DNA of 64,000 nucleotides from Planococcus antarcticus DSM 14505 (lineage in GTDB: Bacteria; Bacillota; Bacilli; Bacillales_A; Planococcaceae), in NCBI RefSeq assembly GCF_001687565.2, contig NZ_CP016534.2, positions 2,546,501 through 2,610,500 on the forward strand, in the 5' to 3' direction. The position numbers and the translations under genes are program-made. Each line of letters begins with the position of its first letter. Position 1 is the stretch's first letter. The notes beneath the pieces were generated by a model that worked only from the letters and a program-made list of their open reading frames with translations, searched no databases and was not told the DNA's origin. Positions 15,018-45,425 of the stretch are shown piece after piece.

Positions 15018-15090
15018 GATTCCTTAGCTCAGCTGGGAGAGCGCTACCTTGACAGGGTAGAGGTCGCTGGTTCGAGCCCAGTAGGAATCA
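15018..15090 (+). tRNA. tRNA-Val (anticodon GAC)
   Basis: A complete 73-nt cloverleaf. The acceptor stem is GATTCCT/AGGAATC, the D arm GCTC...GAGC, the anticodon stem CTACC/GGTAG with loop TTGACAG (anticodon GAC), and the T arm GCTGG-TTCGAGC-CCAGT with one G-U pair. The discriminator base is A. CCA is not encoded (TAT follows). It reads GUC/GUU valine codons. It is a single gene with its own promoter and terminator. Confidence 0.96.
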
Positions 15091-15140
15091 TATCTAAAGA
15101 AACTCATTAAACCATTGGTATATCAATGTTTTAAAGAATT

Positions 15141-15178
15141 AGAGGTCTTGAAGCTATTATGCTTTGGGCCTCTTTTTT
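15141..15178 (+). terminator. Terminator after tRNA-Val
   Basis: Stem AGAGGTC/GGCCTCT (one G-U pair), then an inner AAGC/GCTT helix, followed by TTTTTT (15172-15177). Confidence 0.8.
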
Positions 15179-15456
15179 GTTGTGCTTTTTTCGTCAAGAT
15201 GCTAAGATATGATCGATTTTCAAACTGGTAAAAAACATTTTTATTCAATAACCTGTTTTGCGTGGTCTGCTTTTACAGTAGCAAATTGCTTAGAAATGGG
15301 GGCCTAGGTTTAAACTCCCTTCCGTTTTCTAAAAACTCATTCCAAATGCATTCTTACAATTCATGATGATGTACCACAAAAATTTCCTTCGATTTATGAG
15401 AGTAACCGCGCGCCCTTCAACGATTGCGCATTTTTTTCGGAGGCGCTGCCAGTTTT
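15179..15456. other. Intergenic region, nothing recognised
   Basis: About 280 bp between the tRNA terminator and the convergent yolD-like gene. No ORF with a ribosome site, hairpin of note or repeat was found. Confidence 0.5.
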
Positions 15457-15819
15457 TCAATCAACCATGACAATCGCAACAACTTCATCAATTCGTAACC
15501 TATACTTTTTTTCTGACTCCACGCAAATCAACATCCGACTTCTTACATCGATGCCCTCAATCGTTCCCCTGCGCTCATGGATTATGCCTTCCTTCCAACT
15601 TTGAATAACAACTTCGCATTGGCGCTTCAGCGCAATGTCCATCTCCTCCTGGAGCAACTGCAAATCGTCTTCAGTTAAATCTGGCTTCGGCACTTGTTCA
15701 TCTTTCGCGTACCATTCCCGAATCATCTCGACGTGCTCTGGCAGCATTAATGCTGTCCACTTAATTCGTCCGCGGTCTTTGATGTCACCTACTGTTTTGA
15801 AGTATTTATTGCGTTTCAT
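15457..15819 (-). CDS. YolD-like protein (partner of the Y-family polymerase)
   Basis: A 120-residue YolD-family protein. It shows the family start (NKYFKTVGDIKDRGRIKWTALMLPEHVEMI), here read as family-typical spacing rather than quoted in full, and a C-terminal small beta region (RGTIEGIDVRSRM). These small proteins are encoded directly after UvrX/YqjW-type polymerases and are thought to support translesion synthesis. The gene lies 12 bp after the polymerase stop, so it shares the LexA-controlled transcript. ATG 15819 follows GGGAGTGG. Confidence 0.85.
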   Translation of the reverse strand: MKRNKYFKTVGDIKDRGRIKWTALMLPEHVEMIREWYAKDEQVPKPDLTEDDLQLLQEEMDIALKRQCEVVIQSWKEGIIHERRGTIEGIDVRSRMLICVESEKKYRLRIDEVVAIVMVD

Positions 15820-15831
15820 CGGACCACTCCC

Positions 15832-17091
15832 TTATTCTTTATTGTGTCCGCCAATCAATTTCGTTCGTGCAATGGCGGTGCCTGCCCGTGTACCTGATAC
15901 GCCCCGGTAGATTGCCGAATAACCGTACCTTTTTCGGATCGTGTCCATCGCTTCTCCTAGGCTTCTGTTTTCGAACTTCCTTTCATCAAAAAGGCTTAAC
16001 TGCATCGATGATTCCTCTTCCAGGTTGCTGATGGCCAGTGAAATTTGCCGCACCGGTTTATGCTGGAAATGCTCACGAAAAATTTCCAGACAGACCTGGT
16101 ACATCTTTAACGTGTCGTTTGTGGCTTCATCAATGGACCGCGAGCGGGAAAATCCACCGCCAAAAGCCGTCTTGCTGTAGATGATGCTCAAGTGGATGGT
16201 CCGCCCTGCACGCCGGGCTTGGCGCGTCCGCATCGCAACATCTTCGCACATTTCCAGGATGATGGTCATGATGTCTTTTTCTTGTATATAATCCCGGTAT
16301 AGAATCTGCCCCTTCCCGTAACTGACCTGCCCCTCAATCAAGGGAGAACCCATATCCGACAAATCGATGCCATTAGCATGCTGGTGCAGTTGGTTGCCTA
16401 AAATGCCAAACTGATTTTCAAGGATGGAAACATCTGCACAGGCCAAATCGCCGACAGAATAAATCCCCATGTTATTCAAAGTCTTTTCTGTCCGGGAGCC
16501 GATACCCCACACTCTGCTTAAAGGCCTCACAAGCCACAATTTCATTGCCACATCGGCATAAGACCAATAGGCAAATCCCGTTCTTTTCGCTTCCAAATCT
16601 AATGCTAGTTTCGCCAGTAGCATGTTCGGTCCTCCACCAACTGAAGAAGGCAATTTAAAACAATCCAATATCTCTTGCTGAATACGGCGCATAGTGAATG
16701 TTGGTGGCCCCCATAGCTTTTCAGTTCCTGTAAGTTCGATAAAACTTTCATCCACACTATAAATATGGAGCGATTCTTTCGGCACATAGGCTCCTAACAA
16801 CTCAGTGATAGCCATGGACTTCTGTAAATAAAGCTTCATTTTCGGTTCAATTAACACAATATCCTTATGGTTTGGAATTTCAAAAAGCCGTGTACCGGTT
16901 TTTACACCAAACCTTTTTTTCATCATCGGCGAAGCAGCTAAGACCACACTTCCTTTCCGTTCCTGATTGCCGACAACCGCAAGACAAACTTCCAGTGGAT
17001 CCAATCCCAGTTCGACTGCAGAAACGCTGGCATAAAAGCCGCGCATGTCGATGCAAAATATATATCGTTCTGGTAATTCAAGAACTTTCAT
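15832..17091 (-). CDS. Y-family DNA polymerase, UvrX/YqjW type
   Basis: A 419-residue translesion polymerase of the UmuC/DinB superfamily. The palm motifs are FCIDMRGFYASV (first acidic residue Asp near 16) and SVDESFIEL (Asp-Glu). A helix-hairpin-helix segment follows (VWGIGSRTEKTLNNMGI) and then the little-finger domain. It bypasses DNA lesions at the cost of mutation. ATG 17091 is preferred: GAGAGGTGG precedes it and the GTG at 17100 falls inside that site. A LexA box overlaps the promoter just upstream, so it is expected to be SOS-induced together with the YolD-like gene. Confidence 0.93.
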   Translation of the reverse strand: MKVLELPERYIFCIDMRGFYASVSAVELGLDPLEVCLAVVGNQERKGSVVLAASPMMKKRFGVKTGTRLFEIPNHKDIVLIEPKMKLYLQKSMAITELLGAYVPKESLHIYSVDESFIELTGTEKLWGPPTFTMRRIQQEILDCFKLPSSVGGGPNMLLAKLALDLEAKRTGFAYWSYADVAMKLWLVRPLSRVWGIGSRTEKTLNNMGIYSVGDLACADVSILENQFGILGNQLHQHANGIDLSDMGSPLIEGQVSYGKGQILYRDYIQEKDIMTIILEMCEDVAMRTRQARRAGRTIHLSIIYSKTAFGGGFSRSRSIDEATNDTLKMYQVCLEIFREHFQHKPVRQISLAISNLEEESSMQLSLFDERKFENRSLGEAMDTIRKRYGYSAIYRGVSGTRAGTAIARTKLIGGHNKE

Positions 17092-17111
17092 AATTACCAC
17101 CTCTCAAAATG

Positions 17112-17154
17112 GAACGTATGTTCTTATTCTATACCACGAATATGCTGACGGCAA
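17112..17154 (-). promoter_or_regulatory. LexA box and promoter of the polymerase operon
   Basis: The palindrome GAAC-GTAT-GTTC (17112-17123) fits the Gram-positive LexA (DinR) core GAAC-N4-GTTC. It lies directly downstream of a minus-strand promoter with TTGCCG (17149-17154), a 17-bp spacer and TAGAAT (17126-17131). LexA bound there would block transcription until DNA damage. Confidence 0.88.
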
Positions 17155-17317
17155 TCCTTTTCGAGAAAATATAAAAATTTATCCTTTGATTCAGCAAGTC
17201 TGAATCAAGTTAAAAGTCATTTCCAAAAAAATCTTTATGGCTTTTCTACCTAATTTATCTGTCCGCAATTCAAAGAAGAGTTGATTTCTCTCTCAAAACG
17301 TCAAACTTTCTAACAAC

Positions 17318-17346
17318 TTTACATTTAGCCATTAACCATATATGAT
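17318..17346 (+). promoter_or_regulatory. Promoter of the orphan structured RNA
   Basis: TTTACA (17318-17323), 17-bp spacer, TATGAT (17341-17346) on the plus strand. No protein gene follows before a terminator at 17459-17486. Confidence 0.6.
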
Positions 17347-17352
17347 TCAATT

Positions 17353-17488
17353 AATAAGAAGTTCGACATCCATAGTTCTTATGATTTCTTGAAATCAGTA
17401 GGAATCATTGGGTGCCAAACCCACTGCAAGCTTTAGGAACAAAGTTTGCTTTGAAAAAGTCATCGCCTTCGGGTGATGGCTTTTTTCG
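17353..17488 (+). ncRNA. Candidate structured small RNA (unidentified family)
   Basis: A ~135-nt transcript is predicted between a sigma-A-type promoter and an intrinsic terminator, with no ORF. Five helices can form in a row: ATAAGAA/TTCTTAT (17354-17360 with 17376-17382); GATTT/AAATC with a CTTG loop (17383-17387 with 17392-17396); TGGGT/ACCCA (17409-17413 with 17419-17423); GCAAGCTTT/AAAGTTTGC with one G-U pair (17426-17434 with 17441-17449); and the terminator GTCATCGCC/GGTGATGGC closed by a TTCG loop (17459-17480), followed by six Ts. No plus-strand gene lies upstream or downstream, so it is not a leader or trailer. I do not recognise the family. Confidence 0.6.
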
Positions 17489-17515
17489 TTCTTCGATAAA
17501 CTAAAATTACAAAAC

Positions 17516-17553
17516 AATAAAAAAACCGGCCGGGCATCAGCCCAACCGGTTTT
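17516..17553 (-). terminator. Terminator after the TRAP transporter operon
   Basis: Stem AAAACCGG/CCGGTTTT (17522-17529 with 17546-17553) with an inner GGGC/GCCC helix, and a minus-strand T run after it. Confidence 0.85.
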
Positions 17554-45140: not shown

Positions 45141-45189
45141 TATTGCTTCTTAAATTGCTTATGTATTATAATAATAAGATATATTAATG

Positions 45190-45425
45190 AGCGATGAAAA
45201 AGATAAGTAAATGCAGTTCCTTCTATAAAGAGAGTCTGTGGTTGGTGAAAACAGACGAAGTGCTGCATTGAATGGACTTTTGAGCTGAACCGGTGAATGA
45301 ACAGTAGCCGGTTCCGTGTTCTTCACGTTATGAAGAAAAGTGGCCGTTTACGGCAACTAGGGTGGTACCGCGGAAAACACATCATTCGTCCCTTTTTTAA
45401 GGGATGTGTGCTGTGTTTTTTATTT
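45190..45425 (+). promoter_or_regulatory. T-box riboswitch (tRNA-Trp) upstream of trpS
   Basis: The leader has the hallmark T-box sequence AGGGTGGTACCGCG at 45359-45372, which pairs with the uncharged tRNA 3' end. The specifier codon TGG is at 45273-45275 in the stem I loop (GAATGGACTT), identifying tRNA-Trp. It ends in a terminator hairpin around TCCCTTTTTTAAGGGA with a TTTTTT tail near 45416. Uncharged tRNA-Trp favours antitermination and trpS expression. Confidence 0.95.

Follow-up and report, generated by a model that had tools for sequence, protein, structure and literature searches.

A probable conserved small-RNA gene of tRNA-trailer origin in Planococcus antarcticus

Background

The closest described counterpart of the RNA presented here is 3'ETS-leuZ of Escherichia coli, a tRNA 3' external transcribed spacer that acts as an sRNA sponge (Lalaouna 2015, as cited in PMC7154689). 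In both cases the sequence of a tRNA 3' trailer constitutes an RNA in its own right. The present trailer differs in that it is conserved over several families, in that it follows tRNA-Val(GAC), and in that the copy in the window (the whole stretch of 64,000 nucleotides of Planococcus antarcticus DSM 14505 that was analysed) has its own promoter and lies outside any tRNA gene; a sponge role would here be an analogy. The sequence corresponds by homology to a tRNA 3' trailer, and the window copy still carries the tRNA end CAGTAGGAATCA. Release from a tRNA precursor does not apply in the window, where 2.3 kb with two minus-strand genes separate the RNA from the tRNA; in the tRNA-linked relatives it is the gene arrangement that fits such a release.

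Two other systems invite comparison. RsaE/RoxS is likewise a free-standing small RNA of Gram-positive bacteria that ends in an intrinsic terminator, and it is encoded in the same window, but the RNA described here has no Rfam match at 17318-17488. The attL/attR sites that arise in tRNA genes resemble the locus in that an insert is flanked by a repeat of the tRNA 3' end. The present locus departs from them in its conserved promoter and secondary structure, and in having free-standing counterparts among other neighbouring genes.

We propose that positions 17318-17488 constitute the gene for a non-coding RNA of about 136 nt that derives from a tRNA trailer and would act in trans via a GGAAC loop. 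Taken as a whole we consider this reading likely, and its parts differ in strength. Comparison of sequences makes it very probable that the locus is a genuine small-RNA gene, that it is conserved and that it originated from a tRNA trailer. The mode of action, a trans-acting RNA of which the GGAAC hairpin would be the active part, is a guess by analogy and a somewhat doubtful one.

Comparison with known RNA families and literature

The first-pass annotation had not recognised the RNA as tmRNA, 6S, SRP RNA, RNase P, RoxS or a known riboswitch, and as far as Rfam goes this was correct. None of the covariance models (families including tmRNA, 6S, SRP, RNase P, RsaE and T-box) reached its gathering score at 17318-17488, and a permissive cut-off yielded low-scoring matches only, such as RNAI with 19.9 bits against a cut-off of 47. 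No Rfam family was found for the conserved tRNA-Val(GAC) tail, and plasmid and phage records contained no similar DNA at E 0.01. Elsewhere in the window the Rfam models located the RsaE/RoxS gene (RF01820; 32070-32178, minus strand) and a T-box leader (45185-45396, plus strand). The RsaE of the window was rejected as a duplex partner, since 145 of 300 shuffles were equally good.

Literature searches returned no report of a tRNA-trailer RNA in these bacteria, a provisional outcome given that most subscription papers fall outside their coverage. In the main text of the structured-RNA discovery papers that were consulted, a word look-up did not find the names Exiguobacterium, Lysinibacillus, Solibacillus, Sporosarcina or Planococcaceae. 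Public small-RNA reads exist for P. halocryophilus and E. sibiricum, generated for another purpose (PMC11354880; BioProject PRJNA1077126). The P. halocryophilus reads are from strain DSM 24742; a free-standing copy is present in strain HM12 (L234). The Illumina small-RNA adapter given there happens to include GGGTGCCAA (PMC11354880). An adapter artefact was nevertheless rejected, because 108 of the 261 family genomes have the module, with covarying stems.

The locus and its predicted transcript

The promoter-like site at 17318-17346 (TTTACA, 17 nt, TATGAT) proposed in the first-pass annotation was borne out with a match of 10/12, as was the terminator, which has a stem 17454-17467/17472-17485, a TTCG loop and a T-run at 17481-17486. 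The terminator was absent from the first scan listing, but it formed in the fold and was found by a custom script. A plain promoter scan by itself gave 3 sites in 2 kb versus 4.0 expected, i.e. no excess over chance. It is the combination that stands out: when 26 promoters and 13 terminators on both strands of the 64-kb window were scanned, a promoter of at least 10/12 followed by a perfect-stem terminator 60-200 nt downstream on the same strand was unique to this locus.

The RNA 17347-17490 folds at -47 kcal/mol versus -29 (sd 3.77) in shuffles (z -4.77; none of 200 shuffles equal), and the terminator adds to this stability. The helices of the fold are partly nested and not the five consecutive ones that had been claimed. 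More specifically, P1 (CAUCCA:UGGGUG) encloses P2 (UUCUUAU:GUAGGAA, topped by GAUUU:AAAUC), and the GGAAC hairpin and then the terminator follow 3' of both (Table 1).

As had been stated, the protein genes on either side are encoded by the minus strand and the RNA contains no convincing ORF. GTG, TTG or ATG frames of 15-45 codons are found in most of 43 related RNAs, with a frame, start and end that vary between genera. A peptide product was rejected as there is no frame common to all genera. A GTG frame of 19-24 codons is recurrent in the Psychrobacillus and Solibacillus types; no ribosome-binding site is visible upstream, and the frame recurs because the underlying bases recur.

Table 1. Features of the tRNA-Val(GAC) and small-RNA region (window positions)
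Feature	Position	Strand	Basis or remark
Intact tRNA-Val(GAC), presumed ancestral 5' neighbour; now with a different trailer and terminator	15018..15090	+	ARAGORN, Rfam tRNA
Direct repeat CAGTAGGAATCA, left copy (tRNA 3' end)	15079..15090	+	sequence
Inserted DNA: yolD-like gene, uvrX-like Y-family polymerase gene, promoter and 5' part of the putative RNA	15091..17395	.	tblastn synteny; Pfam YolD and IMS
Block TTTCTAACAACTTTACATTT including the -35 hexamer (17318-17323)	17307..17326	+	identical in 12/12 Planococcus loci
-10 hexamer TATGAT	17341..17346	+	TATGAT in 10/12 loci, TAAGAT in 2/12
Putative small RNA, about 136 nt	17353..17488	+	start deduced from the -10
P1 5' strand CAUCCA in motif UUYGACAUCCA	17367..17372	+	motif resembles free-standing copies elsewhere
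P2 stem-loop: 17376-17382/17398-17404, upper stem 17383-17387/17392-17396	17376..17404	+	predicted fold
tRNA-Val 3'-end remnant CAGTAGGAATCA, right repeat copy	17396..17407	+	sequence
P1 3' strand UGGGUG	17409..17414	+	alignment and predicted folds
Second module hairpin, loop AGGAAC (17435-17440)	17426..17449	+	alignment and predicted folds
Intrinsic terminator, UUCG loop	17454..17486	+	fold, script, covariation

Relation to tRNA-Val(GAC) and the yolD-uvrX insert

The RNA had been called an orphan that is neither leader nor trailer of its neighbours. This holds for the protein-coding neighbours but not for the locus as a whole: over its 3' two-thirds (17396-17488) the RNA matches tRNA-Val(GAC) genes at their 3' end and in their trailer, and 2.3 kb upstream on the same strand there is an intact tRNA-Val(GAC). 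The intervening genes, of the yolD family and the uvrX type, are both on the minus strand. As expected of an attR target repeat, the 12 bp of the tRNA 3' end, CAGTAGGAATCA, are present at both ends of the insert (13 bp when the next T is included).

Synteny by tblastn is in line with this arrangement. In one genome (G037) the gene order is nuclease, tRNA-Val, module and DctM-type permease, with no yolD-uvrX in between; in the window and in three other genomes (G002, G020 and G038) yolD-uvrX parts the tRNA from the module, and in G041 uvrX-yolD also adjoins the module. The comparison makes for a strong case that an insertion separated the tRNA gene from its trailer, and the identity of the RNA as well as its tRNA-trailer origin are well supported. 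In Planomicrobium stackebrandtii (G020; L039, 5904-8160) the tRNA-Val and the small RNA are on opposite strands, which looks like the inversion of a short segment; tRNA and RNA are therefore independent of each other in that genome. The 13-nt sequence GGAACGTATGTTC upstream of uvrX (17111-17123) resembles an SOS box, which would fit a damage-induced polymerase.

The same repeats raise the alternative of an integration scar, in which an element that had inserted into tRNA-Val(GAC) and then decayed left the locus as its attR, the fold consists only of leftover tRNA end, trailer and terminator, and the promoter is accidental. tRNA-Val(GAC) does look like an integration hot spot, with a 6-kb integrase element in one genome and copies behind a tRNA half among the module hits (see below). 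Besides yolD and uvrX, the insert has as ORFs of at least 60 aa only small frames that overlap; on reading 15091-17395, with Pfam applied to yolD and uvrX, no integrase-like ORF was noticed. A scar, however, would not be expected to retain a -35 and a -10 over 12 loci while the spacer drifts, nor to acquire compensatory changes, nor to have free-standing equivalents beside other genes in other genera. We regard this explanation as quite unlikely.

Conservation and covariation

A blastn search of the locus against 100 genomes, its own included, gave matches in 31, 28 of which are among the 46 of the genus. The whole or nearly whole query was matched in 9 genomes (again including its own); in three more (G012, G038 and G041) the match is broken by a longer insert in P2 and the unit is present, which brings the total to 12 Planococcus loci. 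Their mean pairwise identity, with gaps scored as mismatch, is 1.00 in the -35 block (17307-17326), 0.41 in the spacer (17327-17340) and 0.95 in the -10. It amounts to 0.76 in the 5' part (17353-17395) and to 0.95 in the tRNA remnant, module and terminator (17396-17488), with 0.36 in the upstream flank (17130-17302) and 0.49 downstream (17495-17530); the 0.67 for the first 110 nt of uvrX is depressed by a ragged alignment end. The conserved promoter and the intrinsic terminator that mark an independent small-RNA gene are both in place. This conservation, together with the covariation and the equivalent genes in other genera, supports the earlier suggestion that the structure is kept and that the RNA has a promoter and terminator of its own.

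Alignment A3 comprised 43 free-standing RNAs, a part of the free-standing matches of the family search; L150 (identical to L149), L104 and L160 (no 5' motif) and L444 were left out. With a structure of 24 pairs, 91.6% of its cells were paired versus 37-49% in slid versions, and 14 pairs were double-changed, a number reached in none of 500 shuffles; 8 of the 9 terminator pairs contribute much of this signal. P1 taken alone over all genera gives a weak signal relative to shuffles (81.6% versus 80.3% of cells paired, reached by 17 of 500), and its slid versions are far lower at 29-51%. The longer P1 of 15 RNAs of the Solibacillus/Lysinibacillus type has 6 double-changed pairs (0 of 500 shuffles; slid versions 0-3). 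Within the module both sides have changed in 6 of 14 pairs, and within the 12 Planococcus loci alone double changes occur in 2 of 39 predicted pairs. The stem of the first hairpin changes from UGGGU:ACCCA to UAGGU:ACCUA with retention of the loop GCCAA (L104, L436-440 and L447); in L030 and L119 this hairpin is disrupted, and L441 has a changed loop.

Distribution of the module

In the 18 other loci that were read, outside the clade of 12, the match starts around window position 17396. In 13 of them the module comes immediately after an intact tRNA-Val(GAC) and in 4 after a tRNA 3' half; in L019 ARAGORN called no tRNA. Covariance model R2 (46 positions) located the module in 108 of 261 family genomes and 10 of 19 genera at E 0.001, under stricter filters by which some weak matches were lost; at class level, with E 0.05, it was present in 30 of 299 genomes. 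The broader model R3 matched 49 of 398 genomes and 14 of 145 genera at E 0.01, the weakest of these matches being partly due to chance. A search limited to the 5' part found this locus in 10 genomes at E < 1e-6; matches with E 0.002 and above were regarded as chance. The matches L442, L443, L202, L226, L274-L276 and L162 were also chance-like.

Named genomes scanned with a sequence pattern yielded 97 stretches, of which 80 were listed. In Exiguobacterium a whole tRNA-Val directly precedes the module in 9 of 9 loci, and the same holds for an intact tRNA-Val(GAC) in 10 of the 12 loci read from Bacillaceae, Neobacillus and Sutcliffiella included. Only a tRNA half is found before the module in both Neobacillus loci and in the second copy of Sutcliffiella. 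The direct linkage in Exiguobacterium and in most Bacillaceae loci is the reason to take the tRNA-linked state as ancestral. The module appears to be dispensable, because 18 of the 46 genomes of the genus are without it; these have kept tRNA-Val, with other trailers. Many module-less Planococcus genomes (L380-L397) share another tRNA-Val trailer around ATGCATGCTACGCGCTGCAC; this trailer may represent a further conserved tail. In another family (L432, L433 and L434) the first hairpin, UGGGUGCCAAACCC, follows tRNA-Lys(CTT) in 3 of 3 loci, and the second structure differs.

tRNA-linked, tRNA-half and free-standing copies

In 40 regions, which like a further 20 were hand-picked for variety from the family matches of R2, 43 module hits were classified: 15 follow an intact tRNA-Val(GAC), 13 follow a tRNA 3' half and 15 are free-standing. 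The tRNA halves mostly start near the anticodon, and would be the expected leftovers of site-specific integration at that place. Across Bacillales, tRNA-Val(GAC) seems to be a favoured site of integration. In P. glaciei (G006; L031, 4336-10502) a 6-kb element with a phage-type integrase is situated in tRNA-Val(GAC), flanked by two full copies of the module.

The free-standing copies are those of Psychrobacillus, Paenisporosarcina, Solibacillus and Lysinibacillus. They are without a complete tRNA, in most cases -10-like boxes can be made out upstream by eye, and their common 5' motif is close to UUUGACAUCC(AAUAAU). Some of them retain a remnant of the tRNA 3' end and L116 has a decayed tRNA half, as if these had been caught in mid-transition. 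Their 12 settings vary between genera, with genes for an ammonium transporter, a sodium:solute symporter and glutamine synthetase among the neighbours. In a Psychrobacillus genome (G172; L141, 5815-9957) the TniQ, TniB-like and rve-type genes of a Tn7-like element adjoin the free-standing copy. A minimal form in G158 and G159 starts at the first hairpin, directly after a TATAAT box.

A further reading is that of a mobile-element RNA: the promoter and 5' half would belong to phages integrating at this site, as their right end, and the RNA would serve the element, the host tRNA tail doing no more than completing it. The yolD-uvrX pair is known from the SPbeta prophage. Moreover, a viral contig (L273, 1-160), which encodes terminase, portal and major head proteins, has the same tRNA half and module at its end; shortly before them it has TTTGACATCTATAGTTCTT, which is nearly the TTCGACATCCATAGTTCTT of the window. 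This one case suggests that the 5' half of the RNA may have arrived with an element. Two free-standing copies are near transposition genes, namely L141 and L136, the latter with an IS3-type transposase nearby. Other free-standing copies, however, lie near ordinary genes such as those listed above. In addition, L273 is the only one of 22 copies behind a tRNA half (two of which represent the same place) that has TTYGACATC within 260 nt, and the arrangement was found as a pattern in 1 viral contig and in none of the 261 family genomes. An RNA that serves a mobile element is considered unlikely. A scan of viral contigs for the 16-base 5' motif gave 103 stretches, all taken as chance.

The preferred reading, that of a trailer-derived small RNA, would imply the following course of events. 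From an ancestral tRNA-linked state, an insertion would have split tRNA-Val from its trailer and brought in the promoter and the 5' half of the RNA. The new 5' half would pair with the old trailer in P1 and thereby open the first hairpin of the trailer, and the resulting free-standing RNA would be transcribed on its own. More broadly, and tentatively, the tRNA-Val(GAC) tail of Bacillales and Exiguobacterium may be a conserved regulatory RNA that is repeatedly severed by insertions, this tRNA being a landing site for phages, and an insertion-borne promoter and 5' half may have freed a gene that is half mobile element and half tRNA. What gives the locus its interest is that the birth of a small-RNA gene can be traced, as the tRNA-linked, tRNA-half and free-standing states are all extant in related species, and that a conserved non-coding tail on tRNA-Val(GAC) is indicated in these bacteria.

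Loops and possible mode of action

Nearly all free-standing RNAs retain the two loops of the module. The folds predicted for 43 of them leave GGAAC open in every case (43 of 43), with a mean unpaired probability of 0.99 and a lowest value of 0.87. L161 is without GGAAC. The invariance of this loop is partly a matter of ascertainment, since the pattern scan and the selection of modules required GGAAC; the same applies to alignment A6, with 54 of 83 distinct modules all collected by a pattern that demanded it.

According to the proposed mode of action, the exposed GGAAC loop may act in trans, either by pairing with a GUUCC-bearing RNA or by binding a protein, in the manner of the spacer RNAs from tRNA trailers. 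In the tRNA-linked relatives every synthesis of tRNA-Val would also produce the module, which 3' processing of the tRNA would then set free, and the copy in the window would be uncoupled from tRNA-Val. If the tail indeed regulates, its co-production would tie control to tRNA synthesis, and the species with a free-standing RNA would reveal the effect of cutting that tie.

The module might instead be an aid in processing or termination for the 3' maturation of tRNA-Val, with the free-standing gene as a by-product. Its position directly after tRNA-Val(GAC) across families would suit such a role, as would the recurrence of the first hairpin after tRNA-Lys(CTT). Yet RNAs that lack a complete tRNA have kept the two loops, and the 18 genomes of the genus that lack the module do have tRNA-Val. 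We hold a mere processing aid to be very unlikely. Pairing of the GGAAC loop with the acceptor strand of tRNA-Val was dropped as a general rule: the GAUUCUG of Exiguobacterium offers at most 4 pairs, one of them G-U, and yet the loop is retained.

The two forms of the module would differ in the state of the first hairpin. In the tRNA-linked form UGGGU (17409-17413) would pair with ACCCA (17419-17423) around the loop GCCAA. In the predicted folds of the 43 free-standing RNAs the mean probability of P1 is 0.72 versus 0.18 for the first hairpin, and the latter is preferred over P1 (>0.8) in 6 of the 43, all of the Solibacillus type.
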